Shown here in pieces: positions 4,296 through 59,555 of a stretch of DNA of 64,000 bases (positions are counted from its first letter, which is position 1; the number at the start of each line of letters is the position of its first letter). Under the pieces are notes generated by a model that had not been told where the DNA came from, ran no database searches, and was given only the letters and a program-made list of their open reading frames with translations. Origin of the DNA: Bacteroidetes bacterium SB0662_bin_6 (GTDB lineage: Bacteria; Bacteroidota; Rhodothermia; Rhodothermales; VXPQ01). The DNA lies in assembly GCA_009839485.1 (NCBI GenBank), contig VXPQ01000018.1:1-64000 (forward strand), read 5' to 3'. Both the position numbers and the translations under genes were made by a program.

Positions 4296-4370
4296 GGTGA
4301 CCGTAGCTCAGTCGGTTAGAGCGCCAGGTTGTGGCCCTGGAGGTCGTGGGTTCAATTCCCATCGGTCACC
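4296..4370 (+). tRNA. tRNA-His (GTG anticodon)
   Basis: A full cloverleaf can be folded. The acceptor runs GTGACCG against CGGTCAC, the D-arm contains GCTCAGTCGGTTAGAGC, the anticodon stem-loop carries GTG, and the T-arm contains GTGGGTTCAATTCCCAT. An extra 5' G opposite C73 is the hallmark of tRNA-His. CCA is not encoded (CCG follows). It lies 14 bp upstream of tRNA-Glu and was probably transcribed with it. Confidence 0.95.
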
Positions 4371-4384
4371 CCGCATGAATATAT

Positions 4385-4460
4385 GCCGCGTTCGTCTAGG
4401 GGTCCAGGACGCCGGCCTTTCACGCCGGTAACACGGGTTCAAATCCCGTACGCGGTACCA
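4385..4460 (+). tRNA. tRNA-Glu (TTC anticodon)
   Basis: A 76-nt cloverleaf with encoded CCA. The anticodon loop is CTTTCAC and the T-arm contains ACACGGGTTCAAATCCCGT. The D-arm CGTCTAGGGG... is typical of tRNA-Glu. The first acceptor pair appears as G-U. The exact 26-bp repeat at 4467 starts six bases after the 3' end. Confidence 0.95.
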
Positions 4461-4466
4461 CGTCAC

Positions 4467-4492
4467 GCTGCATAGTGGTAACAGGCCCTAAA
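4467..4492 (+). repeat. 26-bp dispersed repeat, copy B
   Basis: Identical over 26 bp to positions 31-56. It sits between the tRNA-Glu 3' end (4460) and the PhyH start codon (4503). Direct repeats beside a tRNA recall attachment sites, but the 4.4 kb between copies A and B holds only ordinary genes and no integrase. Confidence 0.8.
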
Positions 4493-6484: not shown

Positions 6485-7957
6485 ATGATGAGGGGGTGCT
6501 TCAGACTGCCTGTCTGTTTTTTTCTTCTGCTGCTCCTTGCTGCGCCTGTGCATGGGCAAGATCAGGCGGTCGAGTCATCGACTGGGGATAGCGCATTACA
6601 GCTTGAGGAGCCGTTTCCGGCCCTCCGCTTCACCCGCCCCGTGGATTTTCAGGCGCCGGGCGACGGTTCCGATCGGATCTTCGTGGTCGAGCAGGCCGGG
6701 GTCATAAAGGTTTTCGATAACAGTCCCGGTACCGCCTCCACCAAAGTTTTTCTGGATATAAGGGGCCGGGTTCGCGATCAGGGCAACGAAGAGGGGCTGC
6801 TGGGTCTTGCGTTTCACCCGGCATTCGCCGCGAACGGATATTTCTTCGTGGATTATACGGCGTCCAATCCCCGGCGGACCGTGGTGGCTCGTTACAGTGT
6901 GGATCCGAACGATCCCGATCGCGCGCTGCCGGGAAGCGAGGCGGTCATTCTCGAAGTAGCCCAGCCGTACAGCAATCATAATGCGGGGCAAATCGTGTTC
7001 GGCCCCGACGGGTATCTGTATGTAACCATGGGCGATGGCGGCAGCGGCGGCGATCCGCAAGAACACGGCGAAAACCCCGCCACCTTGCTGGGTTCCATTC
7101 TGCGCATCGATGTAGACGGAGGTTCGCCGTACGCCATTCCCTCGGACAATCCTTTTGCGGGCAACACGGAGGGCTATCGCGAGGAGATTTATGCGTATGG
7201 CCTGCGCAACCCCTGGCGGATCAGTTTCGACCCGTCGACCGGCCGTTTGTGGGCTGCCGATGTCGGGCAGAACCTGTACGAGGAAGTGAACATTATCGAG
7301 AAAGGGGCGAATTACGGATGGGATATCATGGAGGGGCTGCATTGTTATGAGCCGGCTACGGGTTGTGATCGGACAGGGCTGACATTGCCTGTATGGGAAT
7401 ACTCGCACGATCTCGGCATTTCGATCACGGGCGGTTTCGTATACCGGGGCACGTTGGTTTCCTCGCTGGAGGGCCGGTATGTGTTCGCCGACTACGGAAC
7501 GGGTCGTATCTGGGCGCTTGCCTGGGACGGCGCCACCGCACAGGTGGAGGAGATTATGGACACCAGCCTTGCCATCTCGTCTTTTGGGGTTGATGAGCAG
7601 CAGGAACTGTACGCACTGGCTTTCGACGGCAGGATATACCGGTTTGCGGAAATGTCTCTTCCGGGTACGAGCGCGGAAAGCGAGGAGTTGCCTGCCGAGG
7701 CAGTGCTTCTGGGCAACTATCCGAATCCGTTCAATCCGGAGACGACCATACGGTATGCATTGCCACGATCAGGCAAGGTGCGTCTCGCGGTGTACGATTT
7801 GCTCGGGCACGAAGTGGCGGTGCTTGTCGATACGGTGGAACCCGCAGGGCATCACGCAGTGCGTTTCGACGGCGACGATGTGCCAAGCGGTTCATACGTG
7901 TACCGTTTACGGGTCGGGGAGAAAGTCATTGCACGCACCATGACGCTGGTCAAGTGA
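6485..7957 (+). CDS. PQQ-type soluble sugar dehydrogenase with T9SS sorting domain
   Basis: A 490-residue secreted protein of the glucose/sorbosone dehydrogenase six-bladed propeller family, which oxidises aldoses with PQQ outside the cytosol. Signals are RIFVVEQAGVIKVFDN, GLLGLAFHPAFAANGYFFV (candidate catalytic His), NHNAGQIVFGPDGYLYVTMG and YAYGLRNPWRISFDPSTG. A signal peptide (MMRGCFRLPVCFFLLLLLA...HG) precedes it. The C-terminal ~85 residues (LLGNYPNPFNPETTIRY to MTLVK) are a T9SS sorting domain, implying display on the outer surface. ATG at 6488 is an equal start. The next gene is its close paralogue without this tail. PQQ use is a family inference. Confidence 0.92.
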   Translation: MMRGCFRLPVCFFLLLLLAAPVHGQDQAVESSTGDSALQLEEPFPALRFTRPVDFQAPGDGSDRIFVVEQAGVIKVFDNSPGTASTKVFLDIRGRVRDQGNEEGLLGLAFHPAFAANGYFFVDYTASNPRRTVVARYSVDPNDPDRALPGSEAVILEVAQPYSNHNAGQIVFGPDGYLYVTMGDGGSGGDPQEHGENPATLLGSILRIDVDGGSPYAIPSDNPFAGNTEGYREEIYAYGLRNPWRISFDPSTGRLWAADVGQNLYEEVNIIEKGANYGWDIMEGLHCYEPATGCDRTGLTLPVWEYSHDLGISITGGFVYRGTLVSSLEGRYVFADYGTGRIWALAWDGATAQVEEIMDTSLAISSFGVDEQQELYALAFDGRIYRFAEMSLPGTSAESEELPAEAVLLGNYPNPFNPETTIRYALPRSGKVRLAVYDLLGHEVAVLVDTVEPAGHHAVRFDGDDVPSGSYVYRLRVGEKVIARTMTLVK

Positions 7958-8077
7958 ATCGGTGTCCCGGTTCCGGGGTGAAAAGTCTCCTTGTAGCCGA
8001 AATTCTGCGTACCTTCAAGGTCTGTGCAGTTGTCCGGTCCATACATTGGGATACTCTGATCAAGACCACTTCGCTCA

Positions 8078-8103
8078 GCGCTTCACGTTTGTGCGTGAAG
8101 CGC
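8078..8103. other. Strong intergenic stem-loop
   Basis: GCGCTTCACG and CGTGAAGCGC form a perfect 10-bp stem around a 6-nt loop. It lies 120 bp after the T9SS sugar dehydrogenase stop and could cap or end its transcript. A T-run is lacking, so intrinsic termination is uncertain. Confidence 0.5.
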
Positions 8104-8177
8104 CCTTCGGGAGGCAGAGAGGGGCACGCTGGCCGCGTCATTCCTCATTATGTGGGGCCTGCCACACTGCTTCGTCA

Positions 8178-8237
8178 TTCCTTGCCAGCGCACCCCTTTC
8201 AGCCTCTGAGCTTTGCGGACTTAATCAGAGTATCCCA
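8178..8237 (+). repeat. Dispersed ~55-bp element, copy 1
   Basis: It shares TTCCTTGCCRGCG, the block CCTCTGAGCTTTGCG and a CTTRATCAG-rich end with 59498-59555. The reverse complement of 42650-42700 carries a related GAGCTTTGCG...CTTAAT.AGAGTAT block. Function is unknown. It doubles as the right end of the inverted-repeat structure described at 8047-8237. Confidence 0.65.
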
Positions 8238-8299
8238 TGGCCTCGACCCTGAAAATGTCTCTACATAACTCCGTCCATTCTTTCGTTTTGTGCTCCAGG

Positions 8300-9472
8300 A
8301 TGCCGATCTGCTGCCTTGTCTTGCTGTTTCTTGGCGCTTCCGCATGTGGCCTGGGTGAGTTCGCGGATCCGGAACCTGTACCAGAAGAAGGCGAACTACA
8401 GCTTGAGGAGCCGTTTCCGGCGCTCCGTTTCACCCGTCCTGTGGATTTCCAGATACCGGGGGACGGCTCCGGCCGTATCTTCGTGGTCGAGCAGGCGGGG
8501 GTCATCAAGGTTTTCGATAATCGCTCCGATATCGGTTCCGCTGACACCTTTCTCGATATAAAGGACCGGGTTCGCGACCAGGGCAACGAAGAGGGATTGC
8601 TGGGTCTTGCATTTCACCCGGAGTTCGCCACGAACGGCTATTTCTTCGTGGATTACACCGCTTCCGATCCCCGGCGGACCGTGGTGGCCCGTTACAGCGT
8701 GGACCCGAATGATCCCGATCGCGCGCTGCCGGGAAGCGAGACGGTCATTCTCGAGGTAGCCCAGCCGTACGGCAATCATAATGCGGGGCAGATCGTGTTC
8801 GGCCCCGGTGATGGATATCTCTATGTAACCCTCGGGGACGGCGGCAGCGCCGGAGATCCGCAAGACAACAGCCAGGACCCCACTACCTTGCTGGGGGCCA
8901 TCCTGCGCATCGATGTGGATGGGGAGTCGCCGTACGCGATTCCTCCGGACAATCCCTTTGCGGGCAACACGGAGGGCTATCGCGAGGAGATTTATGCGTA
9001 TGGGCTGCGCAATCCCTGGCGGATCAGTTTCGACCTGCCGACCGGCCGTTTGTGGGCTGCCGATGTCGGGCAGCACCGGTATGAGGAAGTGCACATCATT
9101 GAGGCGGGGAAGAATTACGGATGGGACATCATTGAGGGGATGCACTGTTATGAGCCGAGTACGGGCTGTGACCAGGAAGGGCTGGAGCCTCCCGTGTGGG
9201 AATACTCGCACGATTTCGGTATTTCGATCACGGGCGGTTTCGTGTACCACGGAGATCTGGCGCCCTCGCTGGCGGGCCGGTATGTGTTCGCCGACTATGG
9301 AACGGGGCGCATCTGGGCGCTTGCATGGGACGGCGCCGAGGCGGAGGTAGAGGAGATTATGAACACCAGCCTTGCTATCTCGTCCTTTGGAGTCGATGCG
9401 CAGCAGGAACTGTACGCACTGGCTTTCAACGGCAGGATATACCGGTTCACGGAGCAATCTCCCGATCCGTAA
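8300..9472 (+). CDS. PQQ-type soluble sugar dehydrogenase, lipoprotein paralogue
   Basis: A 390-residue lipoprotein form of the preceding enzyme. The ATG at 8300 gives a lipoprotein signal (MPICCLVLLFLGASAC), better than the in-frame ATG at 8237. From LQLEEPFPALRFTRPVDFQ onward it matches the upstream protein almost residue for residue, and much of the DNA is also shared, showing tandem duplication. It ends after the propeller (IYRFTEQSPDP) and has no T9SS tail. It is therefore expected to be membrane-anchored by lipid rather than T9SS-sorted. The sugar substrate is unknown; the ABC importer follows directly. Confidence 0.92.
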   Translation: MPICCLVLLFLGASACGLGEFADPEPVPEEGELQLEEPFPALRFTRPVDFQIPGDGSGRIFVVEQAGVIKVFDNRSDIGSADTFLDIKDRVRDQGNEEGLLGLAFHPEFATNGYFFVDYTASDPRRTVVARYSVDPNDPDRALPGSETVILEVAQPYGNHNAGQIVFGPGDGYLYVTLGDGGSAGDPQDNSQDPTTLLGAILRIDVDGESPYAIPPDNPFAGNTEGYREEIYAYGLRNPWRISFDLPTGRLWAADVGQHRYEEVHIIEAGKNYGWDIIEGMHCYEPSTGCDQEGLEPPVWEYSHDFGISITGGFVYHGDLAPSLAGRYVFADYGTGRIWALAWDGAEAEVEEIMNTSLAISSFGVDAQQELYALAFNGRIYRFTEQSPDP

Positions 9473-18774: not shown

Positions 18775-18902
18775 AGCGAATCGGAAGAATGACAGGGTCA
18801 GGAAAGAATGGGGACAGGAATATTTCCGAAAAATACGACGGCGCGGGTTGTTTTATACCCATTTATGCCCGGTAGCGTCGAAAGATGCCGGTTTATTCCG
18901 TA

Positions 18903-18961
18903 TAGGAGTTTTTGAAATGTCTTCGACCGGTACAGGTCCCGGAAATAGGAGTTTTTGAAAT
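18903..18961 (-). repeat. Two intergenic copies of the 16-bp unit also found in menD
   Basis: TAGGAGTTTTTGAAAT occurs at 18903-18918 and 18946-18961 (start-to-start 43 bp). It is the exact reverse complement of the unit found three times in menD at 38165-38264. The intervening 27 bp, reverse-complemented, also resemble the menD spacers (TCCGGG and ACCGG-CG blocks). The pair lies ~130 bp upstream of sppA and ~105 bp upstream of the DUF2231 gene. Confidence 0.85.
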
Positions 18962-19067
18962 ATCTGCGATCAATCAGGCCCGCCACCGCTACTCCTTATC
19001 CTGCCGGACCGTGTTTCCGTTCTGTCCGATTGCGGATGGAAAGAGCACTTTGTATTCTGCGTGAATT

Positions 19068-32634: not shown

Positions 32635-34890
32635 ATGTACTCTCCATTTCGTTTTTGCGGGCTGCAATCGATTCGTGCAGGTTGCTTTTGCGCCAGACAG
32701 CATAAGCGTCATCCGGTTTTTCCTGTCTCATGGATTGGCAGGCATGTGGTTGTTGGTCTTTTGTTGGCGTCTGCGCCGTTTCTACACGGAAAGAGCTTCG
32801 GTCAACTGGTAAGGAGTTGGCCGCATAGTTCTACTCTCGGGCATACGGCTTGGGTTTTTTCGGTCGCCTTTTCGCCCGATGGCAGTACCGTGGCATCCGC
32901 GTCCGATGACAGAACCATCAGGTTGTGGGATGTGGCTACGGGAGAAAGCATCCAAACGCTTGTGCATACACATCGGGTCACTTCGGTGGCCTTTTCGCCC
33001 CATGGAAACATGCTGGCCTCGGGAAGCGCCGACGGAATCGTCAGGCTGTGGGATGTGGCTACGGGATCCAACACCGCAACGCTCTCGCATGGACATTTTG
33101 TTCATTCGGTGGCCTTTTCGCTCGATGGAAAATCACTGGCTTCGGGAAGTGCTGACGGAACCGCCAGACTTTGGGATGTGGCTACGGGATTCAGTAAAAC
33201 GTTCGGGACGCATGCCGGGGATGTCCGTTCGGTAGTTTTTTCGCCCGATGACAGTACTCTTGCATCTGCATCCGATGACGGAACCGTCAGGCTGTGGGAT
33301 GTGGCTACGGGAGAAAGCCCCCAAACATTTGTGCATACACATTGGGTCACTTCGGCAGCCTTTTCGCCCGATGGAAACATGCTGGCTTCGGGAGCCTTTG
33401 ACGGAGCCGTCAGGCTGTGGGATGTGGCTACGGGATACAGCACCGCAACGCTACCGGGCCATGCCAGGCCCGTCTATTCGGTAGCCTTTTCGCCCGATGG
33501 TAGTATTGTGGCATCTGCGTCCGGAGACAATGTCATCAGGCTTTGGGATGTGGCTACGGGATCCATCACCGCATTCCTCGCGGGGCATACGCATCCGGTT
33601 CGAGGGGTAGCCTTTTCGCCCGATGGCAGTACCCTTGCATCTGCGTCCTATGACGGAACCATCAGGCTATGGGATGTGATTTCGGGAAGTCTTGCCTCTA
33701 CGTTTGGACCCGGAAGCAGACCCCTGACGGTTGTTTATTCGCCTGATGGTAGCATGCTGGCCTCGGGGGGGTGGCACGGAACCATCGGGCTTTGGGATGC
33801 AGCTACGGGATCCAATATCAGAATGCTCAGGGGGCACACGGGGTATATCAGGGTTATCTATTCGGTCGCCTTTTCACCTGATGGTAACATGCTGGCGTCT
33901 GGGGGTCTTGACGGAACCGTCAGACTGTGGGATGTGGCTACGGGAGCCAACACCGCAACGCTATTGAGAAATGCCGGGCGCGCCTATTCGGTAGCCTTTG
34001 CACCCGATGGAAACATAGTGGCCTCGGGAGGCAATGACGGGATCATCAGGCTGTGGGATGTGGCTACGGGGTCCGATATCGGAACGTTCAGGGAGGATTT
34101 GGATTTGGGGATTATCTATTCGGTCGCCTTTTCGCCCGATGGAAAATTACTGGCTTCGGGAAGCGCTAACGGAATCGTCCGGCTGTGGGACGTGGCTACG
34201 GGATTCATTAAAACGCTCGGGAGGCATGACCGAAATGTCAATTTGGTAACCTTTTCGCCTGATGGAAAATTACTGGCTTCGGGAAGCGCTGACGGAACCG
34301 CCAAGCTGTGGGATGTGGCTACGGGATTCAATAAAACGTTGGCGGTGCATTACAGGAATGTCAATTCGGTAGCCTTTTCACCCGATGGAAAATTCCTGGC
34401 TTCGGGAGGCGATGACAATGCCGTCCGGCTGTGGGATGTGGCTACCGGATTCAATGTCAAAACGCTATCGGGACATACGTTTTGGATTACTTCGGTAGCC
34501 TTTTCGCCCGATGGTAACATGCTGGCGTCGGGAGCGTGGGATGGCTTCATCAAGCTGTGGGACGTATCGGATATCGTAACCCATGCGTTCGATGCCGAAG
34601 GCGAGGTTCCAACAGCTTTCCAGTTGCACGGCAATTATCCCAATCCGTTCAATCCCTCGACGCGCGTGGTATTCGACCTGCCGTCGGCGGCCGAAGTGAC
34701 GGTGCATGTCTTTGACGTTCTGGGAAGGAACGTGATCGTCACAAGCCCCGTGTCCTTATCGAGCGGCTGGGGCCATTCGCTTGAAATGAACGCCTCCTCG
34801 TTGCCCTCGGGCGTGTATGTCTATCAGATAAGGGCGCAGGCGGGCTCGGAGATGCTGGTCCAGTCAGGGCGCATGACCCTCGCGAAATGA
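32635..34890 (+). CDS. Fourteen-repeat WD40 protein with T9SS sorting domain
   Basis: A 751-residue predicted secreted protein. A hydrophobic segment (HVVVGLLLASAPFLHGKSFGQ, about residues 37-57) is a likely late signal peptide; the true start is uncertain. Fourteen WD repeats follow, each ending near RLWDVATG, enough for two seven-bladed propellers. Repeats are nearly identical in DNA as well as protein, pointing to recent internal duplication or conversion. The last ~95 residues (from FQLHGNYPNPFNPSTRVVFDL) are a type A T9SS sorting domain, so it should be surface-exposed. Repeat proteins like this usually bind other molecules; ligand unknown. Confidence 0.88.
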   Translation: MYSPFRFCGLQSIRAGCFCARQHKRHPVFPVSWIGRHVVVGLLLASAPFLHGKSFGQLVRSWPHSSTLGHTAWVFSVAFSPDGSTVASASDDRTIRLWDVATGESIQTLVHTHRVTSVAFSPHGNMLASGSADGIVRLWDVATGSNTATLSHGHFVHSVAFSLDGKSLASGSADGTARLWDVATGFSKTFGTHAGDVRSVVFSPDDSTLASASDDGTVRLWDVATGESPQTFVHTHWVTSAAFSPDGNMLASGAFDGAVRLWDVATGYSTATLPGHARPVYSVAFSPDGSIVASASGDNVIRLWDVATGSITAFLAGHTHPVRGVAFSPDGSTLASASYDGTIRLWDVISGSLASTFGPGSRPLTVVYSPDGSMLASGGWHGTIGLWDAATGSNIRMLRGHTGYIRVIYSVAFSPDGNMLASGGLDGTVRLWDVATGANTATLLRNAGRAYSVAFAPDGNIVASGGNDGIIRLWDVATGSDIGTFREDLDLGIIYSVAFSPDGKLLASGSANGIVRLWDVATGFIKTLGRHDRNVNLVTFSPDGKLLASGSADGTAKLWDVATGFNKTLAVHYRNVNSVAFSPDGKFLASGGDDNAVRLWDVATGFNVKTLSGHTFWITSVAFSPDGNMLASGAWDGFIKLWDVSDIVTHAFDAEGEVPTAFQLHGNYPNPFNPSTRVVFDLPSAAEVTVHVFDVLGRNVIVTSPVSLSSGWGHSLEMNASSLPSGVYVYQIRAQAGSEMLVQSGRMTLAK

Positions 34891-37522: not shown

Positions 37523-39478
37523 ATGACCACTCCCGAACCGTCCGGCATCAACCAGATATGGGCCGATCTTCTCGTGGAAGAGTTGATTCGCGCCGGCGTC
37601 GGCCTGTTCTGTCTTGCGCCGGGCTCCCGGAGCGCTCCGCTGGCGCTTGCCGTGGCGGCCCATCCCCGCGCGGAGTGTGTGATGCACTATGATGAGCGGG
37701 GCACGGCGTTTTGCGCCCTCGGGTACGGGCGCGCCGCGCGGCGGCCTGCCGCATGGATTACGACTTCCGGGACGGCGGTTGCGAACGGCATGCCTGCCGT
37801 GGTGGAGGCATCGATGGACGGTGTGCCGATGCTTCTCGTGACGGCGGATCGCCCTCCGGAACTGCGGGCTGCCGGCGCCAATCAGACCATTGATCAGGTA
37901 AAGATTTTCGGAAACTACGTGCGGTGGCAATTCGACCTGCCCGCCCCGGATCCGGCGATCGACCCGGCGGTCGTGCTCACCACGGCGGATCAGGCGGTGT
38001 ACCGGGCGAGACGAATGCCCGCCGGTCCGGTGCATCTCAATGTGATGTATCGCGAGCCCCTGTTTTCCAATCCCGATAGAAGTCGCTATGCAGCGTATCT
38101 CGATGGATTGCGGGCGTGGCAGGATTCGGAGAAACCGTATACCCGGTACGGCTCGGGCCTGGACATTTCAAAAACTCCTACGGCCGGGTCCGAATCGGCC
38201 GCAGGCATTTCAAAAACTCCTAAATCCGGGCATGATCCGGCCGCGGATATTTCAAAAACTCCTATAACATATTCCTTCGATGCGCCTCGATTCGAGTCCC
38301 TGATGCATGCCCTGCGCCGGGCGAAGCGCGGGTTGGTCGTGGCCGGGCGCTTCCATACCCGGACCCAGGCCGATGCGGTCCGGCGGCTGGCGAGCGAACT
38401 CGGCTGGCCGCTACTGCCCGATGTGTGTTCGCAACTCCGATTTTCGGGTGCATCGCCTGCGGACTGGCATACTGACGGGGTTGCGGAAGGCGGCGCGACG
38501 GCTTCGCGGTACGATCTGGCGCTGGCGAGCGAAGCGTTTCGGGTGTCCCATGCGCCGGACGCCGTATTGTATTTCGGCGGGGCAGCCGTGTCGAAGCGGC
38601 TGAATGCCTGGCTGGCCGATGTGCGTCCCGCCTTGTTTGCGGTCGTGCGCGAATCTCCCGACCGGATGGATCCCGGCCACTGCGTGACAGAATATATCGA
38701 GACCGGTATTGCGCCTTTCTCCCGGTCCGTTATGGATCATCTGAAAACGGGACAAGGAGCGAGCGAGGGGACCGGTAATAAGGATTGGACAGCAAGTTGG
38801 GCGGCAGCCTCCGACACCGTAGCCCGCACGATGGACGAGCACATGCCGGACGGCCTTTCCGAGCCTGCCGTGGCCCGGTTGCTTTCGCGGCATACGCCCG
38901 ACGAGGCCACGCTTGTGCTTGCCAGCAGTATGCCGATCCGGGACATGGATATGTTCGGGGATGCTGCCGGCAGGGCGCCGTTCGTAGCCGCCAATCGTGG
39001 CGCTTCCGGTATCGACGGCAGTGTGGCTACGGCGGTCGGACTGGCGTACGGGCGCCGCGCGCCGGCCATTCTCGTGGCGGGCGATCTCGCGTTGCTGCAC
39101 GACCTGAACAGTCTGGCGCTGGCGGCTTCTGCGCCGGAGCCGGTTATTATTGTGGCAATCAACAACCACGGCGGAGGTATTTTTTCGTTTCTTCCCGTAG
39201 CTCGTTGCGGCGAGGCGTTCGAACCGATGTTCGGCACGCCGCACCCGTATCGTTTCGAGCAGGCCGCCCGCATGTTCGGTCTCGGCTACGACCATGTTCA
39301 TGACATGGATACTCTGTCGGAAGCGTACGCAAGCGCACTTTCGTCCGGCGAAAGCCGGATCATTGAAGTCACGACCGATCGCGCCGAAAATCTGGAACTG
39401 CACCGGCGGCTGGAAACCATGATTTGTGAGCAGTTTGCAGACACCGTTCCCGTTTTTACCAACAACCCTGACCCATGA
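37523..39478 (+). CDS. menD: SEPHCHC synthase with in-frame repeat insert
   Basis: A 651-residue ThDP enzyme joining isochorismate and 2-oxoglutarate to make SEPHCHC. Typical segments are [59 protein letters not shown] and [15 protein letters not shown], with the ThDP-binding [12 protein letters not shown] region. MenD is usually ~550-580 residues, so this one is long. Residues 214-250 contain three in-frame copies of a DISKTP-type 14-residue unit, located between the N-terminal ThDP domain and the central domain. The insert sits where a linker is expected, so the enzyme may tolerate it. It overlaps menB by 4 bp. Confidence 0.95.
38165..38264 (+). repeat. In-frame 42-bp tandem repeat in menD
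   Basis: The 16-mer ATTTCAAAAACTCCTA occurs at 38165, 38207 and 38249, exactly 42 bp apart. The repeated peptide is ISKTP followed by a variable Gly/Ala-rich spacer ([16 protein letters not shown]). The same unit in reverse complement occurs twice at 18903-18961, 19 kb away. A 42-bp period keeps the reading frame. Confidence 0.95.
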
Positions 39479-42649: not shown

Positions 42650-42700
42650 TCGGTATACTCTTATTAAGTTCGCAAAGCTCGCAGGCGCCGCAAGGATGGT
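42650..42700 (-). repeat. Dispersed ~55-bp element, copy 2 (inverted)
   Basis: The reverse complement reads CCTTGCGGCGCCTGCGAGC, then TTTGCGAACTTAATAAGAGT and ATACC. This aligns with copies at 8178 and 59498 in the blocks CCTTGC.GGCG, GAGCTTTGCG and CTTAAT.AGAGTAT. It lies between the menE stop and the lptC start, in the opposite orientation to the other two copies. Confidence 0.55.
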
Positions 42701-54456: not shown

Positions 54457-56499
54457 ATGATGGGTACCATGTCTTCCGTTCGATGCTGGCTGGCGGCTGT
54501 TTGCCTGTTTCCGGGGATTGCTATTGCCCAGGATACGTTGTCGGTGCCGGTTCTTCCAGGTCAGACACTTCCGGAATTGACGGTTGAGGCGGTGCGGGGC
54601 GCCGCGAACGCAGCATCGGCTCCATACGCCCTTGCGGTCGAGACGCATTCCCCGGACGGGTTGCCTCGCCCCGTACTTTCCATGGAACGCGTGCTGCGTT
54701 CGCTACCCGGTGCGTGGATTAATGACCGCGGTCATTTCGCGCTTGGAGAGCGGATCTCCGTGCGCGGCATGGGCGCGCGGGCTCCATTCGGCGTGCGGGG
54801 CATGCAGGTTATGCTGGATGGCATTCCGCTCACGATGCCGGATGGACAGACGGTGCTCGACGTAGTGGAATCTTCCGTCCTGCGCCGCACGGAACTCTTG
54901 CGTAGTCCCGCCTCCCTGTTTTGGGGAAACGGTTCCGGGGCCGTGCTTTTCCTGTCGAGTGATGCCACTCTGGAAGATGCTCGCCCTGCTTCCCGTTTGC
55001 GTGCGCAGGCGCTCGCCGGTTCCTTTGGGCAGCGGAGGATCCTTATCGATGGGTGGGCGCCGTTCGGTGCGCATTCCGTACAATTTTACGTGTCAAATCA
55101 GACACAGGACGGGTATCGGAACTATTCTTCCGGCGTTCGTCGCCGTGCAGGGGCCTCTGCCCGGTTTCGCACAGGTTCCTCTTCGCATCTTCGTATCCTG
55201 ACCGCCATTGCCTTACAGGATACCGAGCATCCCGGTTCGCTGACGCGTGAACAGTTCGAGGCGGATCCCTCCATGGCTCGTCCGGCCTTTGAAGAAGCCC
55301 GCGCCGGCAAGGAGAGTCTTCATGTCCAGGCTGGCGCCGCGTTCGGGCAGGAGGCCGATCTCGGGACGCTCCGCATAACCGGGTACGGCGTACGCCGGCA
55401 GCTCGATAATCCTTTATCCTTTGCGTATATCGATCTGGACCGGACGGCCGGAGGAATGCGGGCGGCGCTGCGGCGGGACAGGGAACGGATCCGGTGGGGT
55501 GTGGGAGCCGATGGGGCGCTGCAACATGATATCCGCAAAAATTTCAATAACGCCCAAGGCGTTCCCGGTGACGAAATTCGGCTGGATCAGGTCGAGGATG
55601 TGGCTTCCCTGGGCGCCTTTGCCTATGGGGGCTTCCAGCCTGTTCGAGCCATGCAGGTGCTGGCCGGACTGCGCTATGGCACGGTGCGATTTGAAATGGA
55701 CGATCACCTGTTTGCCAATGGCGATCAATCCGGCAACCGGCTTTTTAGCGCCTGGAGCCCCATGTTGGGCGTATCCTGGCGGGGAAGCGGATGGCTGCTT
55801 TTTGCGAACTATGGCACGGCTTTCGAGACGCCTACGACCACGGAACTCGTCAATCGCCCGGACCTGACAGGTGGATTCAACCCTTCGCTCGATCCGCAGA
55901 TTGCCAGAGGCGTGGAGGTGGGTCTGCGCGGCGCGCTGGGCGCGCATCTGTTCGTGGATGCGGCTGTTTTTTTCATGAACGTGGACGGGCGATTGATTTC
56001 CTTCGAAAACGAACTCGGCCGGGATTTTTTCCGAAATGCGGGCAAGAATACGCATCGGGGCATTGAGGGAGCAGTGCAATGGGTTCCTCATCCTCGCTGG
56101 GAAGCGGCTTTTGTCGCTACCGTGAGCCGTTTTGTTTTCCAGGAGGCGGACTTGAAGGGCAACCTTTTGCCCGGCGTTCCCGAACAGCGTCTTTTCGGGC
56201 GGGTACGGACAGATCAGGGGGGCTTTCGGATCACAGTGGAAGCAGAAGCTGTAAGCGAGTATTTTACGAACGACGCCAATACGGCCGTGAACGATGGATA
56301 TGTTGTTTTCGACGCGTCACTCGGGCACGAGGGATTTGCCGCCGGTTCGGTGCGTATTGCGCCGTTTGTCGAAGTGCGCAATATGCTGAATACCCGATAC
56401 AGTGGTTCCGTGTCGATCAATGCATTCGGAGGCCGTTACTATGAACCCGCACCCGGTCGGGCGTTCCTGGCCGGAATCCAATTCCATATACTTCCTTGA
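54457..56499 (+). CDS. TonB-dependent outer-membrane receptor
   Basis: A ~680-residue outer-membrane receptor. The ATG at 54457 (alternatives 54460, 54469) gives a signal peptide ending around GIAIAQ. The plug domain shows MERVLRSLPGAWINDRGHFALGE, ISVRGMGARAPFGVRG and DGIPLTMPDGQTVLDVVE. A 22-strand-type barrel follows, ending at the aromatic C terminus FLAGIQFHILP. No CarboxypepD-type N-terminal domain is present and no SusD partner is adjacent. Ligand unknown; a carbohydrate hydrolase-like gene follows at once. Confidence 0.9.
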   Translation: MMGTMSSVRCWLAAVCLFPGIAIAQDTLSVPVLPGQTLPELTVEAVRGAANAASAPYALAVETHSPDGLPRPVLSMERVLRSLPGAWINDRGHFALGERISVRGMGARAPFGVRGMQVMLDGIPLTMPDGQTVLDVVESSVLRRTELLRSPASLFWGNGSGAVLFLSSDATLEDARPASRLRAQALAGSFGQRRILIDGWAPFGAHSVQFYVSNQTQDGYRNYSSGVRRRAGASARFRTGSSSHLRILTAIALQDTEHPGSLTREQFEADPSMARPAFEEARAGKESLHVQAGAAFGQEADLGTLRITGYGVRRQLDNPLSFAYIDLDRTAGGMRAALRRDRERIRWGVGADGALQHDIRKNFNNAQGVPGDEIRLDQVEDVASLGAFAYGGFQPVRAMQVLAGLRYGTVRFEMDDHLFANGDQSGNRLFSAWSPMLGVSWRGSGWLLFANYGTAFETPTTTELVNRPDLTGGFNPSLDPQIARGVEVGLRGALGAHLFVDAAVFFMNVDGRLISFENELGRDFFRNAGKNTHRGIEGAVQWVPHPRWEAAFVATVSRFVFQEADLKGNLLPGVPEQRLFGRVRTDQGGFRITVEAEAVSEYFTNDANTAVNDGYVVFDASLGHEGFAAGSVRIAPFVEVRNMLNTRYSGSVSINAFGGRYYEPAPGRAFLAGIQFHILP

Positions 56500-59418: not shown

Positions 59419-59497
59419 GTTGACCGGTGGTCGAAGGGAAGGAGGCCCTAATATACCGAAGCTTTCGCGGAGTTTCTTCAGGATATCCCAATCAAAA

Positions 59498-59555
59498 TTC
59501 CTTGCCGGCGGGCGCCTCTCGGCCTCTGAGCTTTGCGGGCTTGATCAGCGTGTCC
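59498..59555 (+). repeat. Dispersed ~55-bp element, copy 3
   Basis: It shares TTCCTTGCCRGCG and GCCTCTGAGCTTTGCG plus CTTRATCAG with 8178-8237. It lies ~100 bp upstream of a lipoprotein gene, in the same relation as copy 1 to the lipoprotein sugar dehydrogenase. No left-end inverted partner was found nearby. Confidence 0.65.

Follow-up and report, generated by a model that had tools for sequence, protein, structure and literature searches.

A genus-specific tandem-repeat family with an AT-rich core, shared by menD and non-coding DNA in Rhodothermales

The region between sppA and a DUF2231 gene in Bacteroidetes bacterium SB0662_bin_6 carries a short repeat that also occurs, inverted, within the coding sequence of menD, which raises the question of what kind of element is shared by intergenic DNA and an enzyme gene. 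We analyzed the 64,000-nucleotide stretch of contig VXPQ01000018.1 that contains both loci (the window), the whole genome to which it belongs (G000), and a genus sample of six Rhodothermales genomes (G000–G005) in which G005 is the closest relative.

Repeat copies in the window and the genome

Two exact copies of the 16-mer TAGGAGTTTTTGAAAT were found on the + strand at 18903–18918 and 18946–18961, 43 bp apart and separated by a GC-rich spacer of 27 bp (18919–18945). They lie between sppA on the left (signal peptide peptidase, Peptidase_S49, Pfam PF01343; 16972–18774, − strand) and the gene of a DUF2231 membrane protein on the right (PF09990; 19068–19550, + strand). The same 16-mer occurs three times without mismatch on the − strand within menD (37523–39478, + strand), at 38165–38180, 38207–38222, and 38249–38264, with a period of 42 bp. 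The original prediction of an inverted pair was confirmed, as both sppA copies are exact and opposite in orientation to the menD reading direction, and the periods that it gave for the two loci, 43 and 42 bp, were correct. The window contained five matches to the 16-mer with at most 2 mismatches against 0.01 expected, and none of 100 shuffled sequences reached as many. A genome-wide count, which had been proposed as a check, revealed further copies: 11 matches were obtained with at most 1 mismatch and none with the reversed control pattern. The searches of the window and the genome, together with a profile search of the genus, show that coding and non-coding copies belong to one repeat family, as had been assumed. 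Insertion-sequence ends were rejected because the ORFs beside isolated core copies on contigs C3 and C56 encode no transposase.

Other repeats are present in the window. An exact 26-bp direct repeat lies at 31–56 and 4467–4492, the latter copy 10 bp after a tRNA pair (4297–4457) and the former 4.4 kb upstream; this repeat could be attachment-site-like. Stretches of at least 300 bp are duplicated ~1.8 kb apart with 84–86% identity within 6591–9109. A gene at 32635–34890 contains 14 WD40-like repeats with a period of 123–135 bp and encodes a C-terminal GNYPNPFNPSTR segment reminiscent of type IX sorting domains; at 7712 there is coding sequence for a comparable one.

Distribution of the family over three loci

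A sequence profile was built from 17 units and run on the six genus genomes. Strong matches were obtained at three loci only: menD, in all five genomes having this gene; the 3′ side of a TonB-dependent-receptor-like gene, in three genomes; and the sppA–DUF2231 region, in G000 only. The flanks of the three loci are unrelated, and what they have in common is the units alone. Other genera of Rhodothermales showed no such arrays, just scattered single core matches. When the exact tandem pattern was searched in ~85,000 genomes, it was found in the sister genome G005 alone, plus six single matches in unrelated genomes; a match on contig C615 of G005 lies inside a coding gene and was set aside as chance. 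The arrays form a small genus-specific tandem-repeat family of three loci, whose 42–43-bp units consist of an AT-rich 16-bp core and a fast-changing GC-rich spacer. Among the papers searched, none connects Rhodothermales with tandem repeats.

In menD, Pfam domains and an alignment of MenD from the genus and the order assigned the 42-bp repeats, which keep the reading frame, to the linker that joins the N-terminal to the middle TPP domain. They form an insertion of 36–50 residues, of 3 or 4 units depending on the species, directly after the conserved PYTRY motif. Aligned MenD proteins of other Rhodothermales lack this insertion, and menD itself was not found in the fragmented assembly of G005. 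In G000, the core encodes ISKTP on the + strand (as at 38165–38180), and the codons are identical in all three copies (ATT TCA AAA ACT CCT) in spite of the GC-rich composition of the gene. When compared in register, the native PYTRYGS codons are similar to the spacer (p about 5e-4); without a fixed register this likeness is not significant. Together with the array being most widespread in menD, the in-register similarity suggests that the array arose there and was then copied outward to the other loci.

The TonB array sits on contig C35 just past the stop codon of the receptor-like gene, which was identified by eye and not through a family search. It has two cores in G000 (43 bp apart), four in G005 (43, 42, and 43 bp), and two degenerate ones in G003 (42 bp). 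Cores are absent from this locus in G001 and G002, and G004 has a different insertion of 2.2 kb there. The ~240 bp downstream of the array (L081) are 86–93% conserved across the genus with no Rfam match, and are possibly an RNA or a leader.

The sppA–DUF2231 array is absent in G005 and G004. The stretch missing from G005 (18899–19022; 124 bp) is flanked by TTC on both sides, though besides the array it includes old flank sequence, namely ~60 bp to the right that could be aligned to G003 (score of 39 against a shuffled maximum of 28). Since this missing right flank is alignable to G003, the absence in G005 is probably due to a deletion rather than to an insertion in G000, and an insertion with TTC duplication was dropped as an explanation. 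No sigma-70-like promoter was found beside the array. The same intergenic region in G003 has insertions flanked by a dispersed, MITE-like repeat, GCTTTGCGGACTTAATCAGAGTATCC, of which G000 contains 38 copies with at most 3 mismatches (reversed control, 0), including those in the window at 8210–8235, 42653–42678, and about 59497–59555.

The sppA spacers had also been said to match those of menD. This holds weakly: the identity of sppA spacer 1 to every menD spacer is 63% (shuffle p of 0.07–0.08), whereas it reaches 78% with a spacer of the TonB array in G005 (p < 0.001). A second proposal was that selection for the reading frame keeps coding copies at 42 bp and leaves non-coding copies at 43 bp. 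In the five genomes with menD, each of the 11 coding spacings measured 42 bp, which fits such selection; the non-coding part did not hold, as the spacing is 43 bp at sppA and either 43 or 42 bp at the TonB locus. There is only one coding array, so the rule that coding spacing is invariably divisible by three has a single locus behind it, present since the ancestor of the genus. The core is more important than the period.

Core conservation and a candidate AraC-type regulon

Core identity in G000 and G005 is 96%, against 63% for the spacers (column-permutation p of 5e-5), and this applies to coding and non-coding copies alike. In G003 and G004 the values are 75% for the cores, which are degenerate, and 67% for the spacers (p of 0.14). 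The contrast between core and spacer, together with the fixed ISKTP codons, points, in one lineage, either to a constraint at the DNA level or to a core that was homogenised recently.

A search with AGGAGTTNTTGA gave 26 matches in the genus and none with the reversed pattern. Its matches outside genes were members of the 42–43-bp family, members of a second family with 54–56-bp spacing (arrays or single sites), or a site on contig C47, the start of which resembles a second copy of the region upstream of the AraC-type gene on C14. An array with 31-bp spacing and a variant core is also present. Several core-like sites lie upstream of small secreted-peptide genes, of which the four tested had no Pfam match, and others upstream of AraC-type HTH_18 genes, on C14 of G000 and in G003. 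The species of G003 and G004 possess the peptide-gene sites despite their degenerate array cores. Candidate regulon sites with TTTAGGAGTTATTGACAAC, arranged in 54–56-bp or 31-bp arrays or single, were observed in L069 (282–843 and 2189–2762), L144, L127, L137, L170, and L200; they precede genes of small secreted, often Cys-containing peptides and of AraC-type HTH_18 regulators, and certain of them are followed by sigma-70-like TTGACA–TATAAT promoters.

To compare the array cores with these sites, scoring matrices were built from sites that had initially been spotted through their likeness to the core. With a matrix from 20 sites, leaving out the 42–43-bp and 31-bp families, the array cores of G000 scored 18–29 bits, and the maximum in ~158,000 positions of DNA from outside the genus was 8.7. 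A matrix from 24 sites outside the 42–43-bp family ranked the five cores of the window first. With a stricter matrix the cores scored 12.6–19.5 bits, above nearly all background, one in 128,000 background positions scoring as high. These scores link the core to the motif at the promoters of the regulator and its predicted targets. A site in the window, at 55539–55560 (− strand) and apparently inside a gene, scored like the operator motif and equal to the cores. Cross-matches between whole models of the families were near chance (E of 0.09–0.8). The spacings of 21, 31, 42–43, and 54–56 bp favour whole helical turns (p of 0.006–0.09).

Origin and possible role of the arrays

We tentatively favour the reading that the arrays are rows of predicted binding sites for an AraC-type regulator and that the menD array came first. 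The core would be a candidate DNA-binding site as used by an AraC-type regulator of the genus, similar cores lying upstream of genes for AraC-type regulators and secreted peptides with spacings of about 2, 3, 4, and 5 helical turns. The 42–43-bp arrays would present candidate sites in a row on one face of the DNA, and the array between the divergent sppA and DUF2231 genes would be one such row. The menD array would have seeded the other loci, and may have persisted in this gene owing to a unit length divisible by three and a position in a linker between domains. Read in this way from sequence, the core may be a protein-binding site and the arrays clusters of such sites, one of them now within an enzyme gene without breaking it. 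AraC-family operators contain directly repeated sites at whole-helical-turn spacing, for which 42–43 bp would be unusual. The present arrays resemble them in the helical-turn spacing and in the HTH_18 gene that adjoins similar sites in the genus, but the menD and TonB arrays are not at promoters. The lack of a sigma-70-like promoter by the sppA array, the near-chance cross-matches between families, the choice of comparison sites by their likeness to the core, and the background position that equals the cores under the stricter matrix also weigh against this reading. Two of the three arrays lie inside a gene or just past one, away from gene starts, which argues against a simple operator role, as does the degeneration of the cores in G003 and G004.

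That degeneration would be expected of a functionless minisatellite, which we consider almost as likely. Part of the menD linker codons, along with an AT-rich stretch, would have undergone an in-frame duplication in the ancestor of the genus, slippage or recombination would have changed the number of units, illegitimate recombination would have produced the two intergenic copies, and the likeness of the core to other motifs would be chance. The wide distribution in menD, the in-register likeness of the PYTRYGS codons, and the differences in unit number between species agree with such an origin. Uniform decay, however, fails to explain the gap in G000 and G005 between core and spacer identity, the agreement with independently placed sites would have to be put down to coincidence, and the native menD likeness depends on the fixed register. 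It is rather unlikely that the family is a non-autonomous mobile repeat, comparable to BOX, REP, or Rickettsia palindromic elements and capable of insertion between genes and, in frame, within them. Such an element would account for the same unit in both coding and non-coding DNA, at three sites that are unlinked or inverted, and for the empty TonB locus in G001 and G002; it is difficult to reconcile with three loci instead of many copies, with the lack of a consensus fold and of a clear target duplication, and with the seemingly empty sppA site, which a deletion explains better. BOX elements of Streptococcus pneumoniae are interspersed, mostly intergenic repeats with a variable number of tandem boxB modules that can form coding sequence; they are bounded by boxA and boxC, are predicted to form stem-loops, and are widespread in the chromosome (PMC3049150). 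The present family shares the variation in tandem module number between species, but is without boxA or boxC end modules or a consensus fold and occupies three loci. Rickettsia palindromic elements, of about 150 bp, occur at dozens of places and in frame in genes (PMC10969869). Like them, the present family combines non-coding copies with in-frame copies in the gene of a metabolic enzyme, menD; unlike them and unlike REP or MITE sequences, it is a 42–43-bp tandem repeat with no palindrome or terminal inverted repeats of conserved fold. RNAalifold found no pairs, single units folded no better than shuffled ones, and hairpin support was weak; with no Rfam match near the arrays, an RNA element was rejected.

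More doubtful still is a combined scenario, in which a candidate binding site of a genus-specific regulator became a self-spreading tandem module that colonised genes and intergenic DNA, its helically phased sites controlling a secreted-peptide regulon and, in menD, encoding an added 14-residue repeat as well. A CRISPR-like array is hardly credible: invariant repeats are indeed separated by spacers that differ in sequence and hardly vary in length, but these spacers are mutually related (about 63% identical), unlike those of CRISPR, and there are only 2–4 units with a 16-bp repeat, one array lying within a conserved enzyme gene.

The favoured reading, binding-site arrays of an AraC-type regulator, would make this family a small, testable case in which one DNA motif is both a probable regulatory site and an in-frame protein repeat. 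The conservation of the core against the drift of the spacer, in coding and non-coding copies, separates constraint at the DNA level from constraint at the protein level. The sites described here also suggest an undescribed candidate regulon in Rhodothermales, comprising AraC-type regulators and small secreted peptides.
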